This document shows, in pieces, positions 43,150-59,210 of a DNA stretch of 63,288 nt (the stretch's first letter is position 1; the number at the start of each line of letters is the position of its first letter). A program made the position numbers and the translations under genes. Origin of the DNA: a virus. Location of the stretch: positions 1 through 63,288 of IMG/VR virus record IMGVR_UViG_3300027833_001748; one strand, written 5' to 3'. The notes under the pieces were generated by a model. The model was not told the origin of the DNA. It made no database searches and saw nothing but the letters and a program-made list of their open reading frames with translations.

Positions 43150-44534
43150 TGGATATTATTAAATTTAAAGAGGAAGTAATGGAACCAGTTAGTTGTACTT
43201 TTTGTACTGCTAAATGGAAGCAAGTTACTTTGCATTTACAAACAGGCCATACTCACAGTTGCCATCATCCAACTTCGCATAAAATTCCACTTGAAGAATT
43301 AAAAGATAATCCAAGCGCATTACATAACACTAAGTTTAAAAAAGAACAACGTAAACTTATGCTTGAAGGCAAGCGTCCTGAAGAATGTGATTACTGTTGG
43401 AGAGTTGAAGATAGTGGAAGTAATGTACTAAGTGATAGAACATATAAATCTTTTGAGCCTTGGGCCCGACCTTATGTAGATGAAATTGTATCAAAGCCAT
43501 GGGACGACAATGTTAACCCAAGTTATTTAGAAGTTAGTTTTAGCAGTGTGTGTAATTTTAAATGTAGTTATTGTTCACCGCAAGTAAGTTCTAAATGGAT
43601 GGAAGAAATTAAAGAACACGGCCCGTATAAAACATCACAATCATTTAATGACTTACAACATTTAATTGCTACTGATGCAATGCCTATACCAAATAAAGAA
43701 CATAATCCTTATGTAGAAGCGTTTTGGAAATGGTGGCCTGATGTAAGTAAAGATCTAAAACATTTTAGAATAACAGGCGGCGAACCATTATTAACTAAAG
43801 ATACATTTAAAGTACTTGATGACTTAATTGAAAACCCAAAACCTAATCTTGAGTTTTCTGTTAACAGTAACATGTGTGTACCTGATGCAGTATTTGAAAA
43901 ATTTATTAGTAAAATGAAGATTATTGGCTCTCAAGGAAAAGTTAAAAAACTTAAAATATTTACAAGTGCTGAAGCATACGGTTCACAGGCAGAATATATA
44001 CGCCACGGTTTAGACTACGACATGTGGATATCTAATATACGCAGAGTATTACAAGAAGTGCCTAACTGTACATTTACATGTATGAGTACGTATAATGTAC
44101 TAAGCATATTTTCGTTTGATAAAATGTTAAAGGATTTATTAGATCTTAAATTAGAATTTGGTGGTGCAGGCAGACAAATTCCTATAATACTTGATACACC
44201 ATATTTAAGATACCCGCCACATCAAGCAATGTTTATTGCAAACCCTGAGTGGAAAGAAAAATATTTAAAACCGCAATTAGATTTCATGCTTAATAATTTA
44301 GAAGACATGCATGTACGTGGTAAAGAAAATATGGGTTTCTTTAAATGGGAAGCTGATAAGTTTCAGCGGTTGTATGATATTATTGACCAAGAACAGCAAG
44401 ATGAATGGACTGTAACAAACAATAGAAAGGACTTTATTACTTTTGTTAACGAACATGATAAGCGCAGAGGAACAGACTTTTTAAAGACTTTCCCTGAAAT
44501 GGAAAAAGAATATCATCAATGGTCAAATCTTTGA
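43149..44534 (+). CDS. radical SAM enzyme 1, twitch-domain type with extra N-terminal cysteines
   Basis: 461 residues. The radical SAM site is CNFKCSYC, with Cys 135, 139 and 142 as ligands of the [4Fe-4S] cluster that cleaves SAM. GGEP at 210-213 fits the SAM-binding GGE motif. An N-terminal module has CTFC (16, 19), Cys38 and CDYC (80, 83) and probably binds an auxiliary cluster, as in twitch/SPASM-like proteins. Substrate unknown; the family acts on peptides, sugars or small metabolites through a 5'-deoxyadenosyl radical. The start overlaps the previous stop by 1 nt, and its end overlaps the next gene by 16 nt. It is the first of seven radical SAM genes in the window. Confidence 0.85.
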   Translation: MDIIKFKEEVMEPVSCTFCTAKWKQVTLHLQTGHTHSCHHPTSHKIPLEELKDNPSALHNTKFKKEQRKLMLEGKRPEECDYCWRVEDSGSNVLSDRTYKSFEPWARPYVDEIVSKPWDDNVNPSYLEVSFSSVCNFKCSYCSPQVSSKWMEEIKEHGPYKTSQSFNDLQHLIATDAMPIPNKEHNPYVEAFWKWWPDVSKDLKHFRITGGEPLLTKDTFKVLDDLIENPKPNLEFSVNSNMCVPDAVFEKFISKMKIIGSQGKVKKLKIFTSAEAYGSQAEYIRHGLDYDMWISNIRRVLQEVPNCTFTCMSTYNVLSIFSFDKMLKDLLDLKLEFGGAGRQIPIILDTPYLRYPPHQAMFIANPEWKEKYLKPQLDFMLNNLEDMHVRGKENMGFFKWEADKFQRLYDIIDQEQQDEWTVTNNRKDFITFVNEHDKRRGTDFLKTFPEMEKEYHQWSNL

Positions 44535-45502
44535 ATACAGAATTAACTGATCGAGAATTAAAAGCTGCTCGAAAAGCAGCTAAACGTGAGCGCAAAGAAA
44601 GAAACAGGCGCAACAGCGTAAAACCTGTACGAGAGTTAAAATCCTATAGTAACAAAAAGAAAAAACTTGCATTTTGTTTTAGTGGCCAACTTAGAACTTG
44701 GAATAGCAGCATAGGCACATGGCAAATATTATTTGATGAATTAAAAGAAAAACATAACGTATCTGTCATTGATGTGTTTTGTCATATCTGGGATCATAAT
44801 ACTGTACAACAAGGAATAAAGCATGCCACAGAATCTGAAGTTATTACTACATCAGTTCCAGATGATGAAATAACTAGATATATTGAACAACTTAAACCTG
44901 TATCTTATAAAATTGACGACATTATTGCATCTAAAAAAGCTATGAAAGACACTCAGTTCCAAACAGTAATTGATTCTAATGCTGTTTCTAGAGGCAAATA
45001 TAATGCATGGCTGTCTCCACAATTTTATTCAGTTATGTATGCAGCACATTTAAAAAGAAGATATGAAATAGAAAATGATTTTCATTATGATGCATGTGTG
45101 CGTATGAGAAATGATTTATTTTTAAATGATAGATTTAGAGAATGCTTACCTATTGAAACATTTTTAAATCCAGAGTTTAACACAATGTATTCTTGTCATT
45201 CTGGAATAGATGAATCTGTATGGTTTAGAAAAAGATTAGGCGATGTATTTTGGTATGCTGATAGTCCGACATTTGATAAACTATCAAATTTTTATCATTG
45301 GTTTCCAAACATGCCATTAGAAATGACGATATCACACGATGCGCCTCCAGAGCATTTACTTTACTATTATACAAGAATGTGTAATATATCAATAGATCCA
45401 AATATTGTACATTATGTTTCTGTATGCAGAGATGCTGATTATGCTAAAAAGAAGGAAGCTGCCGGCCTCGGTCCATTGGGGGAGCATGAAGTACAATGTT
45501 AA
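44519..45502 (+). CDS. CFSGQ-family putative glycosyltransferase, paralogue 1
   Basis: 327 residues. A 45-residue Lys/Arg-rich N-terminus precedes the strand KLAFCFSGQLRTW (CFSGQLR at 53-59). Then come DVFCHIWDHN and, near residue 196, ACVRMRNDLFL. The pattern of CFSGQxR, xxWD and R-x-R-x-D occurs in a family of putative glycosyltransferases in large phages, giant viruses and bacterial capsule loci. The next gene is a paralogue (RVAVCFSGQIRDW, FIHTWD, KARPD). The basic N-terminus could bind nucleic acid or membrane. Activity is inferred. Confidence 0.55.
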   Translation: MVKSLNTELTDRELKAARKAAKRERKERNRRNSVKPVRELKSYSNKKKKLAFCFSGQLRTWNSSIGTWQILFDELKEKHNVSVIDVFCHIWDHNTVQQGIKHATESEVITTSVPDDEITRYIEQLKPVSYKIDDIIASKKAMKDTQFQTVIDSNAVSRGKYNAWLSPQFYSVMYAAHLKRRYEIENDFHYDACVRMRNDLFLNDRFRECLPIETFLNPEFNTMYSCHSGIDESVWFRKRLGDVFWYADSPTFDKLSNFYHWFPNMPLEMTISHDAPPEHLLYYYTRMCNISIDPNIVHYVSVCRDADYAKKKEAAGLGPLGEHEVQC

Positions 45503-46284
45503 GCAAAAGAGTTGCAGTTTGTTTTAGCGGACAAATACGAGATTGGCACACTGCTACAAAAAATATTTTACACTATTTTTCGACAGATCATATAGCTAAT
45601 GTAACAGTAGATTTTTTCATACACACATGGGATATAAACACGTGGCGAAAACCAAAACAACACCACCATGTATTTAAAAATAAACCTCATAAAGATTTAA
45701 AAAAAATAGTAGAAGCATACAATCCTAAAAAATATCATATGTCTTCTTATGATGAAACACGTTGGCCAAATAGCGAACCTTGGGATCCATTATTTTATAG
45801 TTTTGAATATAGTGTATTATTAAAACAACAATACGAATTAGAAAATAATTTTACATACGATGTTGTTGTAAAGGCTCGTCCTGATACAGTATACGAACCG
45901 CAGCAACGGTTTCCGTTTGAACATAGAATGCCCGCAGGAACTTGTTATACAACAACTACTGTTTCTAAATTTCCTAGAGAATTTAATAAACATTGTTTTG
46001 ATGATGTTATGTTTTTTGGTGATAGTAAAACAATGGATGTTATGGCAGGATTGTACAAGTACTATGCAGTAAAAAGAAAAAACAACAAAGACGCAATGCA
46101 GCAGTATGAATATCATTTAGGCCCTGGAACATTATTATACGAATATGCAGTAAAAAACAATATTCATCCAGGTAGCTGGCCTACTAGCTATGCTGTTATA
46201 CGGAGTACTATGCGAGATCATGAGCTTGACTCGATAGACGATTATGAAAAAATAAAAAGACTTTGGCAGGAGTGGTATATATAA
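45496..46284 (+). CDS. CFSGQ-family putative glycosyltransferase, paralogue 2
   Basis: 262 residues without the basic N-terminal extension of its upstream paralogue. It shows RVAVCFSGQIRDW near residue 5, VDFFIHTWDINTWRKP and VVVKARPDTVYEP, the same three blocks as the previous protein. FDDVMFFGDSKTMDVMAGLY is also shared in type with the family (GDSxxM). It overlaps the previous gene by 7 nt, and its TAA overlaps the next start by 1 nt (TAATG). The duplicate pair could add two residues in sequence or form a heteromer. Confidence 0.55.
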   Translation: MLSKRVAVCFSGQIRDWHTATKNILHYFSTDHIANVTVDFFIHTWDINTWRKPKQHHHVFKNKPHKDLKKIVEAYNPKKYHMSSYDETRWPNSEPWDPLFYSFEYSVLLKQQYELENNFTYDVVVKARPDTVYEPQQRFPFEHRMPAGTCYTTTTVSKFPREFNKHCFDDVMFFGDSKTMDVMAGLYKYYAVKRKNNKDAMQQYEYHLGPGTLLYEYAVKNNIHPGSWPTSYAVIRSTMRDHELDSIDDYEKIKRLWQEWYI

Positions 46285-47144
46285 TGAAATTAATTTTTGA
46301 TGGTGACAGTTGGGCGTTTGGATCTGAAATTGCAGATCCTAAATTAGCTGCACAGTACGATAAACACGCACATCCTGGTGTTTATGATTTTTTACCTGTA
46401 AATGACCGTTATAGAGTTCCTAAAATCTATCCACACAAAATGGCAAATTTATTAGGTTGTGATTACGTCAATCTGGGTTGGCCAGCTGATGATAATAAAA
46501 CTATAATAGAGCGAACAATGACATATATTACTTCGGAATATATAAGTCAAAATAAATCAACTGATGAACTATTTGTAATTATAGGATGGACAAGTCCTGA
46601 AAGAAATAGCTTTTGGTGGAAAAATGGAGACTTTTCTAACAAGTTTAGATTATGGCCACAGGTTCAGCACTTTGATGACAAGAAGCAGAAAAAATTATGG
46701 GACATGTATGTTCAGTATATGTGGCACCCAGAAGAATATATACCTCGGCATGTATCAACAGTGGTGCAGTTCCAAAATTTTTGTAATGCCCATAATATTA
46801 AATGGTTATCATATAATGCGTTTTACCAAACGCCGCATCAAGGACCCGACGGCTGGAAAGATCTTGATATGTTATCAGAAGTAAAAAGTGCTGATAAAAA
46901 TTTAGGCATTTATGATTATTGTAAAAATGGTACAAGAAGACAAAAACAAATACAATTTGAGACCTTATGGGAAACAGTTGATCCAGTAAGATTTTATAAA
47001 AAAGATCAACCTATTAGTACGTTCAAGAGTTTTATTACAGAAACTATAGATGATCCGTGGGTAGGATGGCATCCTAATCCAGAAGCACATGAAGCATGGG
47101 CATTAGAATTAACAAGATATATTAAGAAGAATAAGTTGATATGA
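46284..47144 (+). CDS. SGNH/GDSL-like hydrolase 1
   Basis: 286 residues from the ATG at 46284, with CAGGAG upstream; an upstream TTG in frame is less likely. FDGDSWAFG gives the nucleophile block (GDS), NLGWPADDNKTI the oxyanion block, GWTSPERNSFWW a family-specific motif, and HPNPEAHEAWA the C-terminal His block. SGNH enzymes remove or transfer acyl groups, often acetyl, on carbohydrates. No signal peptide is visible, so it should act inside the cell or be packaged. It overlaps the next gene by 4 nt. Confidence 0.65.
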   Translation: MKLIFDGDSWAFGSEIADPKLAAQYDKHAHPGVYDFLPVNDRYRVPKIYPHKMANLLGCDYVNLGWPADDNKTIIERTMTYITSEYISQNKSTDELFVIIGWTSPERNSFWWKNGDFSNKFRLWPQVQHFDDKKQKKLWDMYVQYMWHPEEYIPRHVSTVVQFQNFCNAHNIKWLSYNAFYQTPHQGPDGWKDLDMLSEVKSADKNLGIYDYCKNGTRRQKQIQFETLWETVDPVRFYKKDQPISTFKSFITETIDDPWVGWHPNPEAHEAWALELTRYIKKNKLI

Positions 47145-47968
47145 AAAAATTAGTAGTATGTGGCGACAGTTTTGCAAAAGGAATAGGTTGCCGAAACCTT
47201 GAAACCGAACCATACGGAAGTTTGGTAGCTAAAAGCCTAGGATTAGAACTTGTAAATATTGCCAAAGGATCTAGTACAAATTATAGTATATTTGCACAAG
47301 TATTGTATGCAATAGAGAATATTGATGATATTGATATGATATTAGTTACTAGTACTAGTTATGATAGAGTAGAATGGTTTAAACACAATGAAAATCCAAC
47401 TAACCATCAAAAGGAATACCTTACTAATTATGATATAAATTATCACGAGTATCCGCCATATATGCCAACTAGTTATACTGAAAAAATAGAAGGTGAACAA
47501 CACATAATGTCTGAAGACCTGTATAACGGAAATGTTTTTACAGAAAACTTATTAGGCATAATTGATTACTTTGATAACGTAGTTGATAAAGGTATAGACA
47601 CTCCGGATGGATATTATAAAAGATTTAATGATGAGCCTAAACGTAGGACTAGAATATTATATGACTACGCTCAACAGATACACGATCCTCGTATAAACAA
47701 AATGCATAGTTTAGGAGCAATGGCAATGTGTCATATAGCTTTAAAAAATGCAAACATAAAACATCTAATTGGAACTGATCCTATAGATAGTTGTAAAAAC
47801 TTTGTATTCATTAACGATAATAACCACATAGATCTTAGTTGGGCAGGTCTTGCACTTAAATACCCTGACGATCTTCCTAGTATGCATACTAGCGCAAAAG
47901 GTCATAGAGTTGCAGCAAAAACTGCACTTAGAAGAATATATGAACTAGATAAAAAGAATGGGTGGTAA
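47141..47968 (+). CDS. SGNH/GDSL-like hydrolase 2
   Basis: 275 residues. LVVCGDSFAKGIG carries the GDS block, NIAKGSSTNYSIFAQVLY the second block, and MHTSAKGHRVAAKTALRR the His block. VTSTSYDRVEWFK matches the family-specific T-x-x-x-(D/E)R-x-x-(F/W) motif also seen in its neighbours. It is probably an esterase or acyltransferase on a glycan. It starts inside the end of the first SGNH gene (ATGA) and is followed 3 nt later by the third. Confidence 0.65.
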   Translation: MKKLVVCGDSFAKGIGCRNLETEPYGSLVAKSLGLELVNIAKGSSTNYSIFAQVLYAIENIDDIDMILVTSTSYDRVEWFKHNENPTNHQKEYLTNYDINYHEYPPYMPTSYTEKIEGEQHIMSEDLYNGNVFTENLLGIIDYFDNVVDKGIDTPDGYYKRFNDEPKRRTRILYDYAQQIHDPRINKMHSLGAMAMCHIALKNANIKHLIGTDPIDSCKNFVFINDNNHIDLSWAGLALKYPDDLPSMHTSAKGHRVAAKTALRRIYELDKKNGW

Positions 47969-47971
47969 TTG

Positions 47972-48652
47972 ATGTCAAAGCTAATAGTTGCAGGATGTTC
48001 GGTTAGTGACTATACTGAAGTCGATCGCGTCTGGGGAGATTATCTAGCTGAACATTTAGGACTTGAATATAAACATCTAGCTGCTGCTTGCGGATCAAAC
48101 GACAGGTCATTTCGATTGCTAACAAACGATATACGTAATAATGTTATTAAATCAGATGACATTGTAATAGTACAATACACTACAACAGAACGGACTGAAT
48201 TTTGGTCAAGTATTCCGCCATTAGAAGCTGATCATTCTGAGATAGATTTTAGAGATCCTTACGACGGCGGCAGCATAATTAAATTTAAGATTAGATCACA
48301 TGAAACATTTAAAGGCACCGATGCTAAATTTACAAAACTGTACGAACGATTTATTAATCAAAATTTTGAATTAGACAAATTTATTAATAATCATATTTCT
48401 TTTCAATGTTTAGCAAAGGAATATAACATACATAATTTATACTTTGTAAAAGTAGGAATATATGGATGGGACGAAACAGCACACGGTAATATGCCGTCAA
48501 TACCTAAATATAAAGATAATTTTTTAAATTATAGAGATTTACTAGAAGAACGAAAATGGCGTTTATCAAGAGACAATCTTCATCTAAATGACAAAGGTCA
48601 TAAAGAGTTAGCAAGTAGAGTCTTTGATAGATTAAAACTAAACAAAGGATAA
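47972..48652 (+). CDS. SGNH-like hydrolase 3 with GCS in place of GDS
   Basis: 226 residues from the ATG at 47972, chosen over an in-frame TTG one codon earlier because GGTGG lies 6 nt upstream. The first block reads VAGCSVSDYT, so the Asp of GDS is Cys while the Ser is kept. HLAAACGSNDRSFRLL is the second block, VQYTTTERTEFWSS the family motif and NLHLNDKGHKELASR the His block (Asp-x-x-His is present). It is probably an active but divergent member. It ends 6 nt before the cupin gene. Confidence 0.6.
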   Translation: MSKLIVAGCSVSDYTEVDRVWGDYLAEHLGLEYKHLAAACGSNDRSFRLLTNDIRNNVIKSDDIVIVQYTTTERTEFWSSIPPLEADHSEIDFRDPYDGGSIIKFKIRSHETFKGTDAKFTKLYERFINQNFELDKFINNHISFQCLAKEYNIHNLYFVKVGIYGWDETAHGNMPSIPKYKDNFLNYRDLLEERKWRLSRDNLHLNDKGHKELASRVFDRLKLNKG

Positions 48653-48658
48653 GTTAAA

Positions 48659-49099
48659 ATGGAAATTAAAAAAGTTACAAAACATTGGGGACAAGAGCTT
48701 TGGATAGCAGATGGTTCGCATACTCCTTATGCATGTAAGCGTATTTTATTTAAAGCAGGCAATAGAACAAGTTTACAAGTTCATGAATACAAAATTGAAA
48801 CCAACTATGTATTATCAGGTACAGGTATACTATTGCGTAGTAAAGAACCATTAGATATTGCAGAGTTCCTTAAAAATGGAATGACGCCAGATGAAGTTCT
48901 TGAATACGAATCTACTTTTGAACGTATTGAATTAAAAGAAGATGTAGTATTTCATATTACTCCAGGGTGGGTACACCGAGTTATAGCAACTACTGATTTA
49001 ACATTTATGGAAACAAGTACAACCGAGTTAGATGATGTAATTCGTTTACAAGATGACACAGGGCGTACACATGGACGCATTAACTACGAACATGAGTAA
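48659..49099 (+). CDS. cupin, mannose-6-phosphate isomerase C-terminal-like
   Basis: 146 residues. KHWGQELWIADGSHTPYACK, FKAGNRTSLQVHEYKIETNY (His42, Glu47), then ITPGWVHRVIA, TFMETSTTELDDVIRL and DDTGRTHGRINYEH match the cupin domain of type II phosphomannose isomerases and related sugar-phosphate proteins. A metal site from H42, E47 and H106-type residues is plausible. It would isomerise or epimerise a sugar phosphate or hydroxyl-acid, feeding the nucleotidyltransferase encoded by the next gene. The two overlap by 8 nt (ATGAGTAA). Confidence 0.75.
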   Translation: MEIKKVTKHWGQELWIADGSHTPYACKRILFKAGNRTSLQVHEYKIETNYVLSGTGILLRSKEPLDIAEFLKNGMTPDEVLEYESTFERIELKEDVVFHITPGWVHRVIATTDLTFMETSTTELDDVIRLQDDTGRTHGRINYEHE

Positions 49100-50636
49100 T
49101 CATACAGTTATATTACCTACAGCTGGCACCGGCACCCGTATGGGAGATTATACTAAGCATCTAAACAAAGGTTTGTTACCGTATAAAGAAAAACCGGCCA
49201 TTGCACATATTATAGATCAATTTCCTGTAGACACACATTTTATTATGCCAGTGGGCTACTTGGCAAATCAAATTAAAGATTTTTGTGCTGTTACGTATAA
49301 CAACAGGAATATTACATTTGTAGAAGTTGACTGGCAAAGCGATATAGCTGGCACCGGATATACCTTGCTACAATGTAGAGATTATATTACTGGACCGTTT
49401 TGGTATATTCCGTGTGATACGTTTTTTGATGAACCTGTAGTTACTGATACACCCAAACACGATTGTTATTATGTAAAAGACATTCCACAAAAAGATAGTC
49501 ATCTATATACTATGTTTGGCACAAACGGTAGTATAATACAAGAAATTACATTTAAAAAAGAAGCACCAAGTGATTGGAAAGCATTTACAGGACTAATGTA
49601 TATTAATGAATGGAATAATTTCTTTGACAGATTAAGTAAATTAAATGACAATGAGTTTATACAAGTAATACAATCAGGAAATAGATATAAAGAATTAGAT
49701 AGTTGGATAGATTTTGGTAATCCTATAAGTTATAAAACAGCAGTATCAAAAAGTCAAAAATTTGATTTTAGTAAGAACGACGAAGTAACATATATCTGTA
49801 ATGACCGTGTAGTAAAATGGTGGTTAGATAAATCAGTACCGCAAAAGAAGATGCGTAAAACACAAATTAATCCTAAAGTATTTCCTGCTAATTGTTTAGT
49901 TAGAGGAAACTTTATGGCATATGATTTCTTTCTAGGAGAAACTTTATATAAATTTAATGATCCAGTAATGTTTAAAGATCTATTAGCATGGCTTGATAAG
50001 AATGTATGGAATATTGCAGATTACGATTTAGATGAAGCAGCAATGTTATTCTACAAAGATAAAACACTTGGCCGTATTAATTTATTTTTAGACAAGTATC
50101 CTGCACTACAAAACATTACTCATGTAAACGGAACAAAAATAAAACCTTACTCAGAATATTTAGAAAATATTAATTGGGAAAATATTGCATCTAATAATTT
50201 GTCAGGATTTGTACACGGAGACTTACAGTTTGACAATATTATTATAAATTCAACTGGTGACTTTTTACTTATTGATTGGCGACATGAATTTGCCAATGTA
50301 GTTGATTACGGTGATATATATTATGATCTAGCAAAAATGGCGGGCGGCTTCATAATAAACTATGCAAATATTAAACAACATAATTTTGACATTGAAATCC
50401 AAGGAACTGAAGTCACGCTCAGTGTGCCTAACATAGATAGTATAGACACTTATCAAACTATACTAAAAGAATTTGTAATTTCAAAAGGCTGGGACTATAA
50501 AAAAGTTCAACAATTAATACCTATCATATTTTGGAATATGAGTCCTCTACACACTGCTCCGTTTGATATATTTTTATGGTACCTTGGAATGAAACTATTT
50601 CAGGAGGCAGAAGATGAGTCTACAAAAGTACATTAG
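49092..50636 (+). CDS. bifunctional nucleotidyltransferase-kinase (sugar or alcohol activation)
   Basis: 514 residues from the ATG at 49092. An earlier in-frame start at 49053 would lie deep in the cupin gene and adds nothing conserved. The N-terminal half is a nucleotidyltransferase: VILPTAGTGTRMG with TKHLNKGLLPYKEKPAIAHI, and YIPCDTFFDEP near residue 112. The C-terminal half is an aminoglycoside/choline-kinase-type phosphotransferase: SGFVHGDLQFDNIIIN (His375) and FLLIDWRHEF. This is a kinase plus cytidylyl/guanylyl/uridylyl transferase fusion, as in LicA/LicC or HddA/HddC chemistry. It would phosphorylate a small molecule and couple it to a nucleotide. It overlaps the next gene by 23 nt. 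Confidence 0.8.
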   Translation: MSNHTVILPTAGTGTRMGDYTKHLNKGLLPYKEKPAIAHIIDQFPVDTHFIMPVGYLANQIKDFCAVTYNNRNITFVEVDWQSDIAGTGYTLLQCRDYITGPFWYIPCDTFFDEPVVTDTPKHDCYYVKDIPQKDSHLYTMFGTNGSIIQEITFKKEAPSDWKAFTGLMYINEWNNFFDRLSKLNDNEFIQVIQSGNRYKELDSWIDFGNPISYKTAVSKSQKFDFSKNDEVTYICNDRVVKWWLDKSVPQKKMRKTQINPKVFPANCLVRGNFMAYDFFLGETLYKFNDPVMFKDLLAWLDKNVWNIADYDLDEAAMLFYKDKTLGRINLFLDKYPALQNITHVNGTKIKPYSEYLENINWENIASNNLSGFVHGDLQFDNIIINSTGDFLLIDWRHEFANVVDYGDIYYDLAKMAGGFIINYANIKQHNFDIEIQGTEVTLSVPNIDSIDTYQTILKEFVISKGWDYKKVQQLIPIIFWNMSPLHTAPFDIFLWYLGMKLFQEAEDESTKVH

Positions 50637-51330
50637 TGTAAGTAAGTATCCTGGCAAAACAGGAGAACACTACTACACAAACTTTTTTAGACATTATGAT
50701 CTAAATGCAACTTATACTGCGATGGGTACTGACAACTTAAAAAGCATTGTATCTTGGGCATTAGATAATAATATTTGTGGAATAAGTGTAAGTATGCCGT
50801 ATAAGGCAGAAATAATATCATTACTTGATAATGCATCATCTGAATGTATTGATTACAATACTTGTAACACTGTTAAAATTATTGACGGAAAACTTTTTGG
50901 ATATAATTGCGACTTTTACGGCATGGTAGAAGTTACTAAAAATATAAACAAATCTGACACTATTACTATTTTAGGTAATGGAGCAATGGGTAGTATGTTT
51001 GCAAAATATCTAAGTAATTATAATGTTACAGTTTGTGCAAGGAACAACGGAACATGGAAGAATCGACATAATAATGCTGATGTTATAATAAATTGTACAG
51101 GATTAGGAACTAGCACACCTTCTAGTCCGTTTGATGAAATACCAAAGCAATGCAAACGTGTAATTGATCTAGCAGTAGCAGAAAACCAGCTTCAACAACA
51201 ATGTAGTATATCAGGGATTAAATACAATAGTGGTAAAGAATTTTATAAGAATCAGTTTCTTAACCAATTCAAAATATATACCGGAATAGAATCCAAAGGA
51301 TTAATATATGATCGATATGAAAAAATTTAA
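50614..51330 (+). CDS. shikimate-dehydrogenase-like oxidoreductase (AroE family)
   Basis: 238 residues, slightly shorter than AroE (about 270). NICGISVSMPYKAEI places the catalytic Lys at 64. NTCNTVKIIDGKLFGYNCDF matches the G-A-x-N-T...N-T-D block with catalytic Asp100 kept, although NTD reads NCD and GA is TC. ITILGNGAMGSMFAKYL (G121, G123, G126) is the dinucleotide-binding loop. KYPGKTGEHYYTNFF near residue 12 corresponds to the substrate-binding N-terminal segment, which is altered, so the substrate may not be shikimate (aminoshikimate, quinate or another cyclic polyol are possible). Unusual in a phage. Overlaps both neighbours. Confidence 0.75.
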   Translation: MSLQKYISVSKYPGKTGEHYYTNFFRHYDLNATYTAMGTDNLKSIVSWALDNNICGISVSMPYKAEIISLLDNASSECIDYNTCNTVKIIDGKLFGYNCDFYGMVEVTKNINKSDTITILGNGAMGSMFAKYLSNYNVTVCARNNGTWKNRHNNADVIINCTGLGTSTPSSPFDEIPKQCKRVIDLAVAENQLQQQCSISGIKYNSGKEFYKNQFLNQFKIYTGIESKGLIYDRYEKI

Positions 51331-52390
51331 ACTTGGTGTTGGACCAATGAGCTTAGAGTCTATTGATATAATGACTAATTGGTCAAAGCAAAATGCTACA
51401 CCACTAATGCTAATTGCAAGCCGAAATCAAGTTGACAGTGATACAGGATATGTATGTCGTACATCAGAACTAGTAGAACGTGTACAAAAAAACAAGACTG
51501 TAAATTTATTAGTTTGTAGAGATCACTGCGGACCTTATTTTACTGATTTAGATAAAGGTCTAACAGTTGATGAAGCAATTGTTCGTTGTAAAGATACTAT
51601 TGATGCAGATATTAACAACGGCTTTGATTTAATACATATTGATGTATCACGCATACACACTAATCAATTAGAGTACGGAAAAGAATTAATTGAATATGCT
51701 ATTAGTAAAAACCCCAATATAAAACTTGAATTTGGTAGTGAAGATAATACAGGTATTGATATTGAAAGTAGCATAGGAAGGTTAGATCCTCAATTAGAAT
51801 TTTTGCAAGCATATAAAGATAACATAATTTATTTTGTAACACAAACAGGTAGTCTAACAAAGGGAACACAAGCTGGCGGATTTAATGTAGCTCGTAATAA
51901 AAAGAATGTAAAACTTGTACATGATGCAGGATTTTTATTTAAAGAACATAATGCTGATTACTTTAGTAAATCTGATATAGAAAAAAGATCTTCTGTTGGT
52001 ATTGATAGTTTAAATATTGCTCCACAAATTGGAACAGTACATACTACGGTATTAAAAGAATTTGCATCAGATGAACAATGGAATAAATTTAGCGATTATG
52101 TTTACAGTAAAAACTATTGGCAAAGATGGTCAGAAGATCAAGAAGCAAATAAAGACACTGCAACTATCCTTAGTGGACACTATTGTTTTAATAGTGAAAT
52201 ATATAAAGACATAATTAAAAATATTGATTATGATAGTTTTCTATATAGACTTGATACTAGAATTACATCTGTTTTAGATCATTATACTACATTTATAGAT
52301 AACGATAATACTGCATCGTATTATCAAAAATTAAAAGACAAGATATCGTTAGCAAGTTTAAAAAAACGTGATCCGTTTATATACAAGTAA
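51308..52390 (+). CDS. GatZ/KbaZ-like TIM-barrel protein (tagatose-bisphosphate aldolase-related)
   Basis: 360 residues. PLMLIASRNQVDSDTGYVCR (37-51), LLVCRDHCGP (68-76) and GFDLIHIDVSRIH (106-116) parallel the LIEATSNQVN, GGDHLGP and KIHLDAS blocks of the non-catalytic subunit of class II tagatose-1,6-bisphosphate aldolase. In that pair the GatY/KbaY partner carries the metal site; none is seen here. Later KLEFGSEDNTGID and FVTQTGSLTKGTQAGGFN could bind phosphate. It may work alone on a ketose phosphate or serve as a partner for a host enzyme. It starts 23 nt inside the AroE-like gene, with AAAGGA 7 to 8 nt before the ATG. Confidence 0.6.
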   Translation: MIDMKKFKLGVGPMSLESIDIMTNWSKQNATPLMLIASRNQVDSDTGYVCRTSELVERVQKNKTVNLLVCRDHCGPYFTDLDKGLTVDEAIVRCKDTIDADINNGFDLIHIDVSRIHTNQLEYGKELIEYAISKNPNIKLEFGSEDNTGIDIESSIGRLDPQLEFLQAYKDNIIYFVTQTGSLTKGTQAGGFNVARNKKNVKLVHDAGFLFKEHNADYFSKSDIEKRSSVGIDSLNIAPQIGTVHTTVLKEFASDEQWNKFSDYVYSKNYWQRWSEDQEANKDTATILSGHYCFNSEIYKDIIKNIDYDSFLYRLDTRITSVLDHYTTFIDNDNTASYYQKLKDKISLASLKKRDPFIYK

Positions 52391-52401: not shown

Positions 52402-52899
52402 ATGATACTATATTTAGATATGGACGGTGTAATTGCAAATTGGTACGATGCATTTGCAAAGCACAATGGAGTTGATCATTGGACAAAAGTGCCTAACAAA
52501 GACAAAGCAGTATTTGAATTAAAGTCTACAGATTTTTTTAATACTATTGACTTATATCCATCAACTAAAAAATTAGTATCAGCAGTTAAACAAATTGCAG
52601 GTGATGATTATGGAATATGCTCAAGTCCATTAACTGAAGATCAACACAATAGTAGCTATTGGAAAAGAGTATGGTTAGAACGTCACGGATTTATGCCGAT
52701 AATTCCTAACTTAATCTTTACAAGAAACAAAGAAAAATATGCAGTTGATAGGATAGATGGCTCGCCAAATATCCTTGTTGATGATAAAATTAACAATGTT
52801 TCACAATGGTCTGCTGCTGGCGGCATTGGTATACACTATTTTGCTGACAAAGATAATGTTGATGATTTAATAACTGCATTAAAACAATCATATAAGTAA
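52402..52899 (+). CDS. HAD-superfamily 5' (3')-nucleotidase-like phosphatase
   Basis: 165 residues. YLDMDGVIANWYDAF (Asp6 and Asp8) is HAD motif I, CSSPLTEDQHNSSYW lies in the motif II and cap region, and ILVDDKINNVSQW supplies motif IV. The arrangement is that of the NT5C-type deoxyribonucleotidase group. It may hydrolyse a nucleotide or a sugar phosphate; in this island the latter is also reasonable. GTGAGG lies upstream of the ATG. It is the last gene before a consensus promoter. Confidence 0.75.
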   Translation: MILYLDMDGVIANWYDAFAKHNGVDHWTKVPNKDKAVFELKSTDFFNTIDLYPSTKKLVSAVKQIAGDDYGICSSPLTEDQHNSSYWKRVWLERHGFMPIIPNLIFTRNKEKYAVDRIDGSPNILVDDKINNVSQWSAAGGIGIHYFADKDNVDDLITALKQSYK

Positions 52900-52934: not shown

Positions 52935-53609
52935 ATGTATGATATCGTATTCATAAGTTACCAGGAGCCTTCTGCAGATGAAAACTACGCTGCACTAAAG
53001 GCACGATTTCCTATGGCTAAACGTGTACACGGAGTTAAAGGAATACATCAAGCACACATAAAGGCAGCAAAGAAATGCTTTACTAAGATGTTTTGGATTG
53101 TAGATGCAGACGCACTTATATTAGATACATTTAATTTTAACTACGAAACACCAGAACATCAATTAGATCATGTGCATGTATGGAGAGCAAAGAATCCTAT
53201 TAATGGATTAGAATATGGTTATGGAGGAGTAAAGTTATTTCCTCGCAACCTTACAATAGGAATGGATACAACTAAATCAGATATGACTACAAGCATAAGC
53301 GAACATTTTATTGCTGTAGATGAAGTTGCAAATATTACAAAATTTAATACAAGTCCATTTGAAACGTGGAAAGGTGCATTTAGAGAATGTGCTAAACTAA
53401 GCAGTAAGACAATTACGAGACAAAACAATGACGAAACAGATGATAGACTCAATACGTGGTGTACAAAAGGCTCTGAGGAACGCTATGGCAGCTACGCTCT
53501 TAATGGTGCTAATGCTGGCAGGGAGTTTGGGATTTCTAATAGGAGCAATATTGGTCTTATAAATGATTTTGATTGGCTAAAGGAACAGTTTGATGCAGAA
53601 TGTAGCTGA
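52935..53609 (+). CDS. putative glycosyltransferase of the YLSYDEPNAE family, short form
   Basis: 224 residues. DIVFISYQEPSADENYAALK, KRVHGVKGIHQAHIKAAKK, MFWIVDADALILD (DAD at 57-59) and NGLEYGYGGVKLFPR match protein 42217-43149 block for block. FETWKGAFRECAKLSS matches its AWRAGFREGVKLATD segment. It lacks the C-terminal 80 residues of the long form. It is the first gene after the leaderless-type promoter; AAGG lies 14 nt before the ATG, too far to be a good ribosome site. It overlaps the following radical SAM gene by 17 nt. Confidence 0.6.
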   Translation: MYDIVFISYQEPSADENYAALKARFPMAKRVHGVKGIHQAHIKAAKKCFTKMFWIVDADALILDTFNFNYETPEHQLDHVHVWRAKNPINGLEYGYGGVKLFPRNLTIGMDTTKSDMTTSISEHFIAVDEVANITKFNTSPFETWKGAFRECAKLSSKTITRQNNDETDDRLNTWCTKGSEERYGSYALNGANAGREFGISNRSNIGLINDFDWLKEQFDAECS

Positions 53610-54648
53610 CATCAAAACAGTTCATATCGAGCTTACAGATAAGTGTCAAGCACAATGTCCAATGTGTGCTAGAAACTTTCATGGCGGCGCAACACGCCCA
53701 TTCATACGCAATGGTGATATTAGCATTGAACAATTTAAAGAATGGTTCCCTCGAGACTTCTTAGCTCAATTAAATAATTTTTACAGTTGCGGTAACTACG
53801 GTGATCCTTGCTTTGCAATAAATTGTTTAGAAATATATTCATATGTGCGTGAATGCAATCCAACAGCAAGATTAGGAATACATACTAATGGCGGTATGCG
53901 TAATCCAGCATGGTGGGCAAAGTTAGCACAACATAATATTGATGTTATATTTGCTGTTGACGGATTTAAAGGTAAACATGAATTATATCGCAAGAATACA
54001 AAGTTTGACAAAGTAATAGAAAATTTAAAAGCGTTTATTGATGCTGGCGGCAATGCATCAGTTGATAGTTTAGTATTTGCACATAATGAACACGAAGTAG
54101 ATGAACTTGAAACATATTTACTAAACATTGGCGTACAAAAAGTAAACTTTGTTAGTACAACACGATTCTATGAAATGAAAGAATACGAAGTACACGATAA
54201 TAACGGTAATGTAGAATATACTATTTCGCCTGCGCAAACAGAAAGATTTAAGAAAACACCGTCAAAGTCATTAACAGCGTTGTTGGATAAATCATATAGA
54301 GACGCTTCATTAGAACAAAGTATAATTACTCCTAAGTGCGAAACAGAAAACGGCATCTATGTAGATCCATATGGTGATATATTTCCTTGTTGTTGGCTTG
54401 GCGGAGATTATTTAGAACAGCCGATACAAGAAGTACTGCCAATACACGAACTACGTAATCTAAGTGTTGAAAATACCAAACAAGTTTTAGCAGATGTTGG
54501 CATTCCTAATTGTAAAGACAGTGTACTATCCAAAAACACAACACTATTTGAAAAATTATCTAATTACTGGAATGGTGCAGACAAGTGTATGACATGTTCT
54601 CGTCAATGTAGTAACCTAATGTATGAGAGTAATAACAAGTATGAATAA
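53593..54648 (+). CDS. radical SAM enzyme 2 with C-terminal SPASM-like cysteines
   Basis: 351 residues from the ATG at 53593 (AAAGGA 8 nt upstream; an in-frame TTG one codon earlier is possible). IELTDKCQAQCPMCARN gives Cys 18, 22 and 25 for the radical SAM cluster. FYSCGNYGDPCFA and GIHTNGGMRNPAWW follow in the usual positions. Near residues 250-270 KCETENGIYVDPYGDIFPCC resembles the start of a SPASM auxiliary-cluster domain, completed by CMTCSRQC at the end. SPASM members often modify peptides or sugars. Substrate unknown. Confidence 0.85.
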   Translation: MQNVADIKTVHIELTDKCQAQCPMCARNFHGGATRPFIRNGDISIEQFKEWFPRDFLAQLNNFYSCGNYGDPCFAINCLEIYSYVRECNPTARLGIHTNGGMRNPAWWAKLAQHNIDVIFAVDGFKGKHELYRKNTKFDKVIENLKAFIDAGGNASVDSLVFAHNEHEVDELETYLLNIGVQKVNFVSTTRFYEMKEYEVHDNNGNVEYTISPAQTERFKKTPSKSLTALLDKSYRDASLEQSIITPKCETENGIYVDPYGDIFPCCWLGGDYLEQPIQEVLPIHELRNLSVENTKQVLADVGIPNCKDSVLSKNTTLFEKLSNYWNGADKCMTCSRQCSNLMYESNNKYE

Positions 54649-55639
54649 CTTTCAACAAATACCTTGGGATGATATTACAGAGTTTGGACAAAAAACTCTT
54701 TTAAACACTGATCTTTTTACTGTGTCATGGATACTTGCTAGATTTTGTAATTATAACTGCTCGTATTGTTGGCCGTACGCTAGATCTAGTACTCCTGATC
54801 ACCAGGATTTAGAGGTATATACACGTACAATAGATAATATTAAAGCACAGGCTCGTGATAACGGATTTACTGACTTCCATTTTAGTTTTAGCGGAGGCGA
54901 ACCAACTGCTTATAAATACTTTGGGGAGGTTATAGACCATTACTGTAGTGATACAGCACCCAAGTACCAGAGTATCCACATGACGACCAATCTAAGCCCA
55001 GGAAGCAAATGGTGGAACAGATGGTTAGAGTCAACTAGTACTCTACAACGTAGAAGTATTACAGCAAGCTATCATGCAGAGTTTGCAAACGAACAAGAAT
55101 TTGGAGATAAATGTCTCCAATTAATGAAAGGAGGAACATTTGTTACAATTAATCAAGTCATGGTACCGGAAATGTTCGAAGAATTATACGGACGCCTTGA
55201 ACGATTTGCCGCCAGAGGTATTAACGTCACTCTCAAGCCCCAATCCGATCCTACCGCCTCCTACGTGGTACATGGATACACTGAAGGCCAGATCACAAGA
55301 ATGCAAACCGGATTTCCACAAAGAATCCCAGAAGAATTCGAGCAACTAATACCTATTTTAGGAGTAGAGCTTATTGACAAAAATGGCAATAAACACCTAT
55401 TAGATCAAGCAGAACGGTTTAATGCTTTTGGATTTAACAAGTTTAAGGGTTGGGAATGTAATGCAGGATATCAAGGTTGCGTTATACGTGAGAATGAAGT
55501 TAAACGCAGTTATAGTTGTAAAGATCAACCCTTAGGCACGTTAAACGAAGGATTTGAGCTGTTTAAAGCACCATCTAAGTGCATTACTCCTACTTGTGTA
55601 AGTAGTGCAGATAGCAAAATACCAAAGAGGAAAGTATGA
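54641..55639 (+). CDS. radical SAM enzyme 3
   Basis: 332 residues from the ATG at 54641, which overlaps the previous stop by 8 nt; a start at 54623 would add six residues. ILARFCNYNCSYCWPYA contains Cys 36, 40 and 43; FHFSFSGGEPTAY has GGEP at 85-88. The C-terminal part has WECNAGYQGCVIREN, YSCKDQPLGTLNEGF and CITPTC, which look like ligands for a further cluster. It resembles radical SAM 59207-60172 and 61261-62190 in overall plan (GWxCNxG block near the end). Its stop overlaps the next start by 4 nt. Confidence 0.83.
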   Translation: MNNFQQIPWDDITEFGQKTLLNTDLFTVSWILARFCNYNCSYCWPYARSSTPDHQDLEVYTRTIDNIKAQARDNGFTDFHFSFSGGEPTAYKYFGEVIDHYCSDTAPKYQSIHMTTNLSPGSKWWNRWLESTSTLQRRSITASYHAEFANEQEFGDKCLQLMKGGTFVTINQVMVPEMFEELYGRLERFAARGINVTLKPQSDPTASYVVHGYTEGQITRMQTGFPQRIPEEFEQLIPILGVELIDKNGNKHLLDQAERFNAFGFNKFKGWECNAGYQGCVIRENEVKRSYSCKDQPLGTLNEGFELFKAPSKCITPTCVSSADSKIPKRKV

Positions 55640-56370
55640 ATAAGTTTGGAATACTAGGTTATGGCTATGTAGGTAAAGCTACACACAAAGGTTTGCTTAA
55701 AGATGCAAAGGCCATTGTGTATGATATAATGTTTGACATGCCAAAAGAAGTTATATATGAAGCAGATACCGTTTTTATTTGTATACCTACAATTACTGAA
55801 ACAGATATTGATATAGTAATTAATGAAATTAAAGATTTAAAACAGCATAATGCAAATGTAGAAATTGTAATTCGTAGTACATTACCATTAGGAGCATGTG
55901 AACAAATACAAAAAGAAGCAGGTAACATTATCTATATGCCAGAGTTCTTGCGTGAAAGATATTGGGATACAGATTGCTTTAAACGTCCGTTAGTTGTGGG
56001 TAGCGACAATAGTATACCGCAATGGCTACAAGACGAAGAAATTAAAACATGTTCTACTAAAGAAGCAGAGCTAGTTAAAATGTATTCTAATAATTTTGCA
56101 GTAATGCGTATTGCATTTGCAAATGTGTTTTATGATTTAGCAGAAAATGTTGGCGCTGATTATAATAAAGTATTAGATATGTACTTAGACATACAACAAG
56201 ACCAAACATATATGGAAGTTCCTGGACACGATGGAACACGAGGCTTTGGAGGCAAGTGTTTACCTAAGGATTTAGATTTCCTTATTGAAACACTTGACGA
56301 AAAAGGTATTGATCAAAATTGGTTCAAACATATTAGAGAGTTAAATAAAAGATGGCAAAAAAAGTTTTAG
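55636..56370 (+). CDS. UDP-glucose/GDP-mannose dehydrogenase-like protein, lacking the C-terminal domain
   Basis: 244 residues, against about 390-450 for full enzymes. GILGYGYVGKATHKG has the NAD-binding G8, G10 and G13. VFICIPT, VIRSTLPLGAC, YMPEFLRERYWD and EAELVKMYSNNFAVMRIAFAN follow in family order. GFGGKCLPKD near residue 202-211 holds the catalytic Cys. The C-terminal substrate-binding domain is missing; the frame ends soon after the Cys loop. It may still oxidise a nucleotide sugar as a dimer or use a reduced substrate. The next gene is an epimerase and overlaps by 19 nt. Confidence 0.8.
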   Translation: MNKFGILGYGYVGKATHKGLLKDAKAIVYDIMFDMPKEVIYEADTVFICIPTITETDIDIVINEIKDLKQHNANVEIVIRSTLPLGACEQIQKEAGNIIYMPEFLRERYWDTDCFKRPLVVGSDNSIPQWLQDEEIKTCSTKEAELVKMYSNNFAVMRIAFANVFYDLAENVGADYNKVLDMYLDIQQDQTYMEVPGHDGTRGFGGKCLPKDLDFLIETLDEKGIDQNWFKHIRELNKRWQKKF

Positions 56371-57230
56371 TAACAGGAGCATCAGGAATGATTGGTAGAG
56401 AGCTGTGTAATCAGCTAAATGCCGACGACTACTATGTAGTTGCAATTGATAATCATTTTAGATATTCACATAGACCTGGTTGTGCAGAGTATGTAACAGC
56501 AAATATACAAACATATCTTCCTAAAATAGATAACGATTTTGATTATATATTTCATATGGGTGCAATAAACGGTACAAAGTATTTTTATGATATACCTAAT
56601 CAATTACTTGAAAATAATATTACAACAGATTTTTCAGTATTTAATTTTTGCAAACGTAATCCTAAATGCAAATTAATCTACGCAAGTTCTAGTGAAGTAG
56701 TAGCAGGTACGGAAGTGTTTCCGACGCCCGAACTAATAGATGTTTCCATCAAAGACATACACAATCCTCGTTGGAGTTATAGACTAAGCAAAATGGTTAG
56801 TGAAAATTATTTAACAAATTGTGAAAGTATTGATTGTTTAATTGTAAGATTCTTTAATGCATTTAGTCCTGCATCGGGCTCGGGTCATTTTGTAAGAGAT
56901 ATATTAGATAAAATAGATAATGAAGACTTTACATTAATAGGAGCAGATGAAACACGTTGTTTTATTAGAGTTGAAGATACAGTTGATGCATTATTAAATA
57001 TATTTAAAGATGTATCCTTTGAAGTTGTTAATATTGGCAGCGATGAAGAAATAACCGTATTAGAAGCAGCAACTATACTTGCTAAACACAAAGGTGTAAA
57101 TCCTTTTTGGAAACATGTAGATGGTAATATAGGCAGTGTTAAACGCAGACGTCCTGATATTAGTAAATTAAAAGAATTTTATCCATTATTTAAACCAGCA
57201 AAGTTTGCAGATTCGGTAGGCGACCTATGA
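56352..57230 (+). CDS. NAD-dependent epimerase/dehydratase (extended SDR)
   Basis: 292 residues. KVLVTGASGMIGRELCNQL is the NAD-binding loop (G9, G12, G15). YIFHMGAINGTKYFYDIPNQ, LIYASSSEVVAG and WSYRLSKMVSENYL supply the Ser/Tyr-x-x-x-Lys catalytic set (YRLSK near residue 145). VRFFNAFSP and FIRVEDTVDALLNIF fit UDP-sugar enzymes of the GalE, UXS and RmlB group. With the dehydrogenase upstream it could convert a UDP-uronate, for example to a pentose, but the exact reaction is not determined by the sequence. It starts inside the dehydrogenase gene and overlaps the next by 4 nt. Confidence 0.85.
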   Translation: MAKKVLVTGASGMIGRELCNQLNADDYYVVAIDNHFRYSHRPGCAEYVTANIQTYLPKIDNDFDYIFHMGAINGTKYFYDIPNQLLENNITTDFSVFNFCKRNPKCKLIYASSSEVVAGTEVFPTPELIDVSIKDIHNPRWSYRLSKMVSENYLTNCESIDCLIVRFFNAFSPASGSGHFVRDILDKIDNEDFTLIGADETRCFIRVEDTVDALLNIFKDVSFEVVNIGSDEEITVLEAATILAKHKGVNPFWKHVDGNIGSVKRRRPDISKLKEFYPLFKPAKFADSVGDL

Positions 57231-57835
57231 AGATAGATATACAAGACGTATTATTTTGGATGGATGCTATCCGCAATAGTGATGATAGTTATCGTACACT
57301 TGAAAGTTTTTGGAAGGGACAAGTTAATAGTAAGCTATGGCTTGTAGAGCAGTTAGCTCTTGCACGAAGAACAGAATATACTCAACACACTATTACTATA
57401 CACGGAGGATGGCATGGCGTTTTAGCAAGTTTATTGTTTAGTAGTGACATACCGATATTACATATTACAAGTGTTGACATTGATCCTACATGTGAACCAA
57501 TTGCATATACTATGAATAAACGGCAAGAGATAGATAACAAATTTGTTGCAGTCACAGAAGACATGTGTAAATTTAGATATTTTTCTGATATTGTTATTAA
57601 TACTAGTTGTGAGCATATAACACAAGAAGATTACGACAAGTGGTTAGATAACGTACCTACAGATGCCCAGATAGTATTACAAAGTAATAATTATTTTGAT
57701 CACGAGGAACATATACGTTGCAGTACTGATCTAGATGATTTTGTAAAGATGAGTAATATTCACGTTCAGTACAAAGGTGAACTTAAAACGCCTAAATACA
57801 CACGTTATATGATTATTGGACAAAAGTATGAATAA
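57227..57835 (+). CDS. class I SAM-dependent methyltransferase-like protein
   Basis: 202 residues. ITIHGGWHGVLASLLF (GGWHG 60-64) corresponds to motif I, TSVDIDPTCEPIAYTMN (VDIDP 83-87) to motif II with the acidic residue that binds SAM ribose, and SDIVINTSCEHITQEDYDKW to motif IV with the family's C-E-H triad. The substrate could be a sugar, a small acid or a phosphopantetheine-like group; it is not shown. It overlaps both neighbours (ATGA with the epimerase, ATGAATAA with the radical SAM gene). Confidence 0.7.
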   Translation: MKIDIQDVLFWMDAIRNSDDSYRTLESFWKGQVNSKLWLVEQLALARRTEYTQHTITIHGGWHGVLASLLFSSDIPILHITSVDIDPTCEPIAYTMNKRQEIDNKFVAVTEDMCKFRYFSDIVINTSCEHITQEDYDKWLDNVPTDAQIVLQSNNYFDHEEHIRCSTDLDDFVKMSNIHVQYKGELKTPKYTRYMIIGQKYE

Positions 57836-59210
57836 CTTAGACAAATATATATCAGCAATAACTAAAGAAGCTGGTAGCGAAACATTTTGTGTTTTGCCTT
57901 GGATACACTTTGCTACTAGACCTAATGGCGATATGAGATTATGTTGTTCATCTAATGCAAGCGGAGCCGGCGGAGATCACACAGTTGGCCTCGTTAAAAT
58001 GGAAGACGGAGAGCCTGCAAACTTTGGTAGAGAAACTCCAATGGAAGCATGGAATAACGACTACATGAAAAGTGTACGTACAACTATGCTTGAAGGTAAG
58101 ATACCTGCTAGTTGTCGAAAATGTTTTGAAGAAGAATCTCGCGGAGTTGCAAGTAAACGTGTTTGGGAAAGTTATACTTGGATGGAAGATGGTGTAGACA
58201 TTCCTGAATTAATACGCCAAACTAAAGAAGATGGCACAGTTCCTGAACAGTTACAGTATTTAGACTTGCGACTAGGTCATACCTGTAATATTAAGTGTGT
58301 AATGTGCAGTCCGCATGATTCGAGCAAGTGGGTAGTAGATCATAAAAAATTAATGCCACAGTTAGAAGATCCTGAAGTTATACGACAAATGCAGTGGGAT
58401 AAGAAACAGTTTAATAATAAGTGGCACGAAAAAGATACGTTCTGGGAAGAAATGAATGCACAGATACCCAATCTAAAACAAGTATACTTTGCAGGCGGTG
58501 AGCCTCTAATGATTAAAGAACACAAGCTGTTTATTGAAGAAATTATTAGACAAGGTTATCAAGACAAAATATTGTTACGTTACAATTCAAATGGGCTGTT
58601 AGTAGACCAAGATTTAATTGAAATGTGGAGTAAGTTTAAAAAAGTAAAGTTTGCTATTAGTATGGATGCTAGTCACGGACGTGATGAATATATACGTTAT
58701 CCTACAAACTTTGATACTGTAGAAAAAACTTTGCATATGCTTGACAACACACCTGACAATATACAAACAAGTTTAGCAACAGCAATACAGATATTCAACA
58801 TAAAGCACCTGCCTGATTTTATGAAGTGGAAACTTGAAAGCGGATTTAAAAAGTTAAATGTAGGCGAAGTTCCAGGCGGCATACAAATGGGCGGCGGACT
58901 AGTTAATATGCACTTGTTGTATATTCCAACATTCCTTAGTATACAAATACTACCTGAAGAAGATAAGCAAGAAGTTAAAGAACGCTTTATGGACTTTAAA
59001 GATTGGTTATGGAATAACTATAGACAAGATGACGAATATTGGAAACATAATCCATATGGTTGGAAACGTTGGGAAGCAGTTCTTAATCATATGAATGCAC
59101 AAGACAACAGTCATTTACTACCAGGCTTCAAAGAATACACAAACAAACTTGATGCTATACGCGGATTGTCAGCAGCCAAAGTATTTCCAGAGTTAGCACA
59201 CTTGTTATGA
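57828..59210 (+). CDS. radical SAM enzyme 4, twitch-domain type
   Basis: 460 residues from the ATG at 57828. FCVLPWIHFATRPNGDMRLC with Cys21 and CC at 39-40, then ASCRKCFEEES (96, 99), form the N-terminal twitch-like module. HTCNIKCVMCSPHDSSKW carries Cys 153, 157 and 160. YFAGGEPLMIKEH is the SAM-binding GGEP. LRYNSNGLLV, FAISMDASHGRDEYIRYPT and LATAIQIFN follow the barrel. It is a close paralogue of gene 43149-44534 and of the cut gene at the right edge. Overlaps the next gene by 4 nt. Confidence 0.87.
   Translation: MNNLDKYISAITKEAGSETFCVLPWIHFATRPNGDMRLCCSSNASGAGGDHTVGLVKMEDGEPANFGRETPMEAWNNDYMKSVRTTMLEGKIPASCRKCFEEESRGVASKRVWESYTWMEDGVDIPELIRQTKEDGTVPEQLQYLDLRLGHTCNIKCVMCSPHDSSKWVVDHKKLMPQLEDPEVIRQMQWDKKQFNNKWHEKDTFWEEMNAQIPNLKQVYFAGGEPLMIKEHKLFIEEIIRQGYQDKILLRYNSNGLLVDQDLIEMWSKFKKVKFAISMDASHGRDEYIRYPTNFDTVEKTLHMLDNTPDNIQTSLATAIQIFNIKHLPDFMKWKLESGFKKLNVGEVPGGIQMGGGLVNMHLLYIPTFLSIQILPEEDKQEVKERFMDFKDWLWNNYRQDDEYWKHNPYGWKRWEAVLNHMNAQDNSHLLPGFKEYTNKLDAIRGLSAAKVFPELAHLL

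Follow-up and report, generated by a model that had tools for sequence, protein, structure and literature searches.

An overlapping AroE-like and GatZ-like gene pair in a conserved four-gene cassette of large aquatic phages and its possible role in sugar activation

The formation of ADP-heptose depends on GmhA, the kinase/nucleotidyltransferase HldE, GmhB and HldD. Gene clusters related to lipopolysaccharide (LPS) or capsular polysaccharides are also known from Prochlorococcus phage P-SSM2 and other jumbo cyanophages (PMC2984593, PMC7824862). The GatZ and KbaZ proteins of Escherichia coli, formerly deemed to be aldolase chaperones, are C4-epimerases acting on fructose 6-phosphate (F6P) and tagatose 6-phosphate (PMC11907403), and 5-ketofructose reductase, another enzyme with the fold of the shikimate dehydrogenase AroE, acts on a ketose (PMC7954740). 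In this study, a 63,288-base stretch of DNA from the IMG/VR virus record IMGVR_UViG_3300027833_001748, referred to as the window, was analyzed with respect to an AroE-like gene that overlaps a GatZ-like gene. The window carries head, baseplate and tail-fibre genes within the first 37 kb, which identify the contig as a phage, and an island of sugar genes and radical-SAM-like genes from approximately 43 kb onward. Its genes for sugar isomerization, sugar activation and a NAD-dependent epimerase/dehydratase, present in a phage genome, give it the content of a phage LPS/capsular sugar cluster, and it shares with the described LPS and capsular clusters the occurrence in large aquatic phages, an island for sugar activation and transfer, cupin isomerases and NAD-dependent epimerase/dehydratases. 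PfkB kinases and nucleotidyltransferases of the HIGH family were reported for those clusters, whereas the window contains a nucleotidyltransferase-APH fusion together with SdhL-like and GatZ-like genes in a fixed cassette.

The AroE-like gene (50614..51330) encodes a protein of 238 aa that is predicted to be an AroE-fold NAD(P)H reductase of the SdhL branch lacking the carboxylate-binding serines, and the GatZ-like gene (51308..52390) specifies a GatZ/KbaZ-like metal-dependent TIM barrel of 360 aa that is predicted to act as a retro-aldol C4-epimerase on a ketose phosphate. The overlap of exactly 23 nt that was noticed in an earlier, sequence-only reading of the window is borne out by the open reading frames (ORFs), each of which has a ribosome-binding site: AGGAGG upstream of the AroE-like ATG and AAAGGA 7 nt ahead of the GatZ-like start codon (ATG at 51308). 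Pfam matches of the pair are Shikimate_dh_N (1.1e-10) and GatZ_KbaZ-like (1.1e-6). The two genes are the distal part of a cassette on the plus strand with the order cupin isomerase, nucleotidyltransferase/kinase fusion, AroE-like reductase and GatZ-like TIM barrel. The cupin (48659..49099) weakly matches PF01050/PF07883 and is predicted to be a type II phosphomannose-isomerase-like enzyme interconverting ketose and aldose phosphates; its metal motif G-x5-Q-x-H-x4-E is present in 53 of 55 phage members and 21 of 22 cellular members. The fusion gene just upstream of the pair (49053..50636; start by homology probably at 49092), likewise recognized in that reading, gave profile matches to both domains, namely an N-terminal nucleotidyltransferase (Arch_glmU 1.4e-14, AglF 2.7e-11) and a C-terminal APH-type kinase (APH 1.6e-5). 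The motifs HGDxxxDN and IDWR are found in 62/62 and 61/62 phage members, respectively, and the nucleotidyltransferase domain obtained its top scores with sugar-1-phosphate enzymes. The pair is probably the centre of a module carried by the phage for the biosynthesis of a nucleotide sugar or nucleotide polyol that feeds the glycan island, a reading to which we assign a probability of about 0.6.

When viral contigs were scanned for the GatZ-like protein, 71 relatives with 38-100% identity were obtained. The AroE-like gene is located upstream of the GatZ-like gene in all 61 contigs with enough upstream sequence and in 41 of 41 clusters formed at 95% identity, and thus the pair, for which a search in other genomes had been proposed in the sequence-only reading, is not separated in all relatives. 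The fusion gene is also present upstream in 50/50 contigs and the cupin gene in 49 of these 50. Both genes of the pair overlap or abut in 36 of the 61 contigs, and a KdsC-like HAD phosphatase gene is inserted between them in 25; touching pairs mostly overlap, most commonly by 14 nt and in four contigs by 23 nt. A search for close relatives with the AroE-like protein alone detected only three contigs, and a profile scan detected 80; six of these (L205-L210) lack the cassette, show 24-25% identity and were excluded as a different AroE type. Starting from this profile, the GatZ-like gene was found downstream in 71/73 cases and the fusion and cupin genes upstream in 59/59. Since the linkage is seen from both starting points, the cassette can be regarded as a unit, which many large and uncultured phages of aquatic origin carry, and with counts far beyond chance a fortuitous co-location of the pair was rejected. 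Phage glycan islands are usually viewed as mosaic; this four-gene unit persists across contigs with approximately 40% protein identity, which argues for a defined product under selection. Among annotated phages, the fusion and a GatZ-like gene were found together only in Marine virus AG-345-E15, without an AroE-like gene. Unannotated Listeria phage LM records (OR8467xx/OR848xxx) matching GatZ and AroE were not counted as phage occurrences; they look like bacterial chromosome fragments because GatZ is located there in a phosphotransferase system (PTS) operon (L002). In some relatives, a NodU/CmcH-type carbamoyltransferase gene directly follows the GatZ-like gene (L006:11068-12540, L038:11076-12548), which suggests a carbamoylated product in these contigs; this neighbour was not seen in the window.

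The AlphaFold model of the AroE-like protein has a predicted local distance difference test (pLDDT) score of 97, and the nearest solved structure is HI0607/SdhL by both profile (7.5e-37) and fold (Z 28.4, root-mean-square deviation (rmsd) 1.9, 238 residues), with the limitation that SdhL, AroE and 5-ketofructose reductase were not distinguished by the fold comparison. The score with the AroE model TIGR00507 was 87.8 bits and hence below the curated cut-off of 200.2 bits; the SdhL model NF009202 (PRK12550) gave 79.8 bits versus 306 curated, and 234.5 bits for a cellular cassette member. Residues K65, N86, D102 and Q244 of AroE are kept as K64, N85 and D100 in 27/27 phage members and as Q214 in 26/27, so that the catalytic Lys64 and Asp100 of the sequence-only reading are invariant; 23/27 members retain the Arg in the NADP-binding loop. 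The altered N-terminal substrate region noted there could be traced to the serines Ser14 and Ser16 that hold the shikimate carboxylate in AroE (PMC2789096): they are replaced by Lys15 and Gly17 in the window, and Gly17 is found in 27/27 phage members as well as in 8/8 members from cellular cassettes. Among the other AroE positions, T61 is changed to S and T101 is variable. Instead of the HSxSP carboxylate motif, a motif S-x-x-P-x-x-x-G is shared with SdhL/HI0607, from which the phage members differ by a shortened NADP domain, approximately 22% identity and their own clade. In the phylogenetic tree, canonical AroE proteins stand apart at 100/100 and the phage, cassette and SdhL rows fall together; the phage proteins and the SAR11 cassette member form a clade (98/88) within the SdhL-like set. 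The internal order of the SdhL side is less certain, and the very long branch of the SAR11 member L102 makes its placement unsure. As judged from the sequence, the AroE-like protein is a member of the HI0607/SdhL branch outside the canonical shikimate dehydrogenases. In E. coli ST648, an SdhL gene adjoins the sor operon (PMC12817954). A 'shikimate 5-dehydrogenase' gene of the SdhL type (L131:7001-7813) is located directly downstream of and overlapping sorE in the sorbose PTS operon of the Serratia plasmid NZ_MT039215.1. The grouping of the AroE-like protein with SdhL, which is found beside L-sorbose genes, favours a ketose or hexitol over a cyclic polyol, and a ketose or ketose phosphate appears to be the likeliest substrate.

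The structure model of the GatZ-like protein (pLDDT 93.9) showed the best folds to be GatZ (2fiq; Z 30.5, rmsd 2.8, 325 residues, with 16% identity over the fold), tagatose 4-epimerase (9kcs; Z 28.7) and UxaE (6il9; Z 26.2), whereas class II aldolases reached Z values up to 23.6. The PF08013 score of 28.0 bits (gathering cut-off 26.7) covers the N-terminal part only, TIGR02810 (agaZ_gatZ, D-tagatose-bisphosphate aldolase non-catalytic subunit) gave 19 bits versus 568.8 curated, and PF01116 (class II fructose-bisphosphate aldolase) remained with 21.6 bits below its gathering cut-off of 25.5. The proposed catalytic and metal-binding residues Asp87, His88, Glu171 and His257 of GatZ (PMC11907403) correspond to D72, H73, E145 and H214, which are kept in 60/60 rows with an E/D exchange at position 145. 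The three-His metal site of class II aldolases is thus lacking, as the third ligand position is Glu/Asp. According to the model, the protein is grouped with the C4-epimerases GatZ/KbaZ, tagatose 4-epimerase and UxaE and not with aldolases; the earlier description as a tagatose-aldolase-related TIM barrel is revised accordingly. The fold, the catalytic Asp and the His/Glu/His metal site are common to the GatZ/KbaZ proteins of the E. coli galactitol operon, which belong to a catabolic context, and the GatZ-like protein of the window, which is encoded in a biosynthetic one.

The observations concern the content and order of the genes, their conservation and homology, the residues of the active sites and the predicted folds; from these we infer the individual reactions, their order, the product and the purpose of the module. 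Using metal-dependent retro-aldol/aldol chemistry, the GatZ-like enzyme would invert C4 of a ketose phosphate (F6P to tagatose 6-phosphate or a close analogue), as suggested by its fold and active site, and the cupin with its phosphomannose-isomerase-type metal motif would interconvert ketose and aldose phosphate. The SdhL-like enzyme, or a short-chain dehydrogenase/reductase (SDR) as stand-in, may reduce the ketose carbonyl with NADPH. The fused kinase would phosphorylate the anomeric or a terminal position, and the distal phosphate would be taken off by a HAD phosphatase, which is KdsC- or GmhB-like in other cassettes and might be an NT5C-like or host enzyme in the window. The nucleotidyltransferase domain would yield a nucleoside diphosphate (NDP)-activated building block, to be attached by transferases of the island to a glycan of the virion or the infected-cell surface; NDP-aldose, NDP-ketose and NDP-hexitol may all be products. 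The cassette resembles the ADP-heptose pathway in its logic, with an isomerase, a kinase fused to a nucleotidyltransferase, a HAD phosphatase and an epimerase. The parts, however, are not homologous, the kinase and isomerase families are unrelated, and epimerization in the cassette probably precedes activation.

With the GatZ-like profile, cassettes were also detected in Woesearchaeota, Pacearchaeota, Nanoarchaeota, bacteria of the candidate phyla radiation (CPR), Omnitrophota, Planctomycetota and Pelagibacteraceae single cells. They carry the fusion, a KdsC-like phosphatase and the cupin, and they are rare: in three groups, 4/279, 2/287 and 3/247 genomes were positive. Among the 21 cellular loci with full context, seven contain an AroE-like gene, eight a FabG/polyol-type SDR gene, none both and six neither (one-sided Fisher test for mutual exclusion, p=0.015). 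The highest scores of the replacing SDRs were obtained with reductases of the ketoacyl and polyol types. This alternation is suggestive of a non-orthologous replacement between carbonyl reductases and therefore points to carbonyl reduction instead of shikimate chemistry. The SAR11 cassette of Pelagibacteraceae single cells (L102, L099) adjoins genes for a GmhB-like phosphatase and a gyrB-like protein; its neighbours also include a heptosyltransferase-like gene (names assigned by sequence inspection), and the location is apparently a surface-polysaccharide region.

The retained AroE fold and catalytic Lys/Asp residues could also indicate an ordinary host-derived shikimate dehydrogenase that raises aromatic synthesis next to an incidental GatZ neighbour. 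A family tree placing both genes among ordinary host-derived metabolic genes, with unchanged substrate residues, had been named in the sequence-only reading as speaking against its interpretation; for the AroE-like gene this did not appear, as canonical AroE forms a separate clade at 100/100 and the family has lost both carboxylate-binding serines. Moreover, several cassette-bearing cells hold a separate canonical AroE elsewhere and the linkage to sugar genes is near universal, so that this explanation is hardly credible. An AroE fold with an altered substrate end beside a kinase/nucleotidyltransferase fusion would fit a pathway to a cyclitol or aminoshikimate-like (C7N) building block; such a pathway is very unlikely, because a dehydroquinate-synthase-like cyclase is found neither among the annotated window genes nor in the recurring cassette and the GatZ branch indicates open-chain ketose chemistry. 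The earlier suggestion of a route from a ketose phosphate or cyclic polyol to an activated building block thus holds best for the ketose phosphate, whereas cyclic polyol, quinate and aminoshikimate are less likely.

More weight has to be given to a nucleotide-hexitol route, in which GatZ epimerizes the ketose phosphate, the SdhL-like enzyme or SDR reduces it to a hexitol (phosphate), the fusion generates a CDP- or NDP-hexitol, as in CDP-ribitol synthesis, and the cupin is peripheral. The replacement of AroE by ketoacyl- and polyol-type SDRs and the proximity of SdhL to sorbose/glucitol genes are in favour of it; the cupin, however, is as conserved as the rest (59/59), the nucleotidyltransferase domain matches sugar-1-phosphate enzymes best and neither reductase occurs in 6/21 cellular loci, which renders the route a rather unlikely, although serious, alternative. 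The adjacent radical-SAM-like and SGNH-like genes, the NodU/CmcH-like carbamoyltransferase and SnoaL-like genes in relatives and the carbamoyltransferase clusters said to serve a sugar-derived metabolite in jumbo cyanophages (PMC7824862) would agree with a module that modifies DNA or tRNA or forms a small secondary metabolite. This is improbable in view of the NDP-sugar dehydrogenase and epimerase genes within the island and the glycosyltransferase-like genes adjoining cellular cassettes, such as that of SAR11 L102. Several observations also weigh against a nucleotide-sugar or nucleotide-polyol module built around the pair. The exclusivity test is based on few loci, two of which (L092, L094) are near-identical, and 6/21 full-context cellular loci as well as Marine virus AG-345-E15 are without a reductase, which is therefore not essential to the core reaction. 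Residues E44, K279 and C20, specific for the GatZ family, are changed to I36, N236 and S15, and the substrate may therefore differ from F6P. Canonical AroE folds are nearly as close as SdhL (Z about 25-27 versus 28.4), the link of SdhL to sorbose comprises few operons, with other SdhL genes, also on plasmids, in uninformative contexts, and the KdsC-like phosphatase is absent from the window and its close relatives.

The enzyme combination of the cassette is not described in the open-licence literature searched. The statement in the sequence-only reading that no phage pathway with this combination is known therefore stands for the enzyme set as far as searched, but phage LPS islands are known and the cassette also occurs in cells; what is new is a fixed cassette with a fused enzyme and two repurposed enzymes. 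At least one ocean catalogue of auxiliary metabolic genes purposely discards contigs with 'lipopolysaccharide islands' (PMC11360552), which may partly explain why the cassette was missed. It offers a testable role for two orphan branches, SdhL and the GatZ-like proteins outside galactitol operons, and represents a candidate source of a rare sugar in phages, SAR11, CPR and DPANN. In a broader and more tentative proposal, to which we give somewhat less than even odds, AroE-fold and GatZ-fold enzymes were moved from aromatic synthesis and catabolism to a nucleotide-sugar or nucleotide-hexitol pathway for a rare activated sugar that is near-fixed in a broad group of large aquatic phages and sporadic in DPANN, CPR and SAR11. 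As a consequence of this distribution, phages may have spread or shaped the cassette.

Further genes belong to the same island. A HAD phosphatase gene of the NT5C-like type (52402..52899, plus strand; PF06941 1.1e-6) is a possible local stand-in for the KdsC/GmhB-like phosphatase of other cassettes; it recurs solely in near-identical contigs, and its association with the cassette is weak. An NDP-sugar dehydrogenase (55636-56370) and a NAD-dependent sugar epimerase/dehydratase (56352-57230), both encoded on the plus strand, were assigned by Pfam and curated-profile matches. Two mutually related proteins (44519-45502 and 45496-46284, together 44519..46284, plus strand), which are syntenic in most relatives, are probably glycosyltransferase-like. 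Three SGNH-hydrolase-like genes in a row (46263-48652) are located upstream of the cupin gene, and most relatives also carry members of two of these three families. The window also encodes four radical-SAM-like proteins (43149-44534, 53590-54648, 54623-55639 and 57816-59210), several of which are positionally conserved around the cassette in relatives. Outside the island, a single ORF of 5,122 aa (15322-30690) between the baseplate wedge gene and the tail-fibre genes probably specifies a giant tail or fibre protein.

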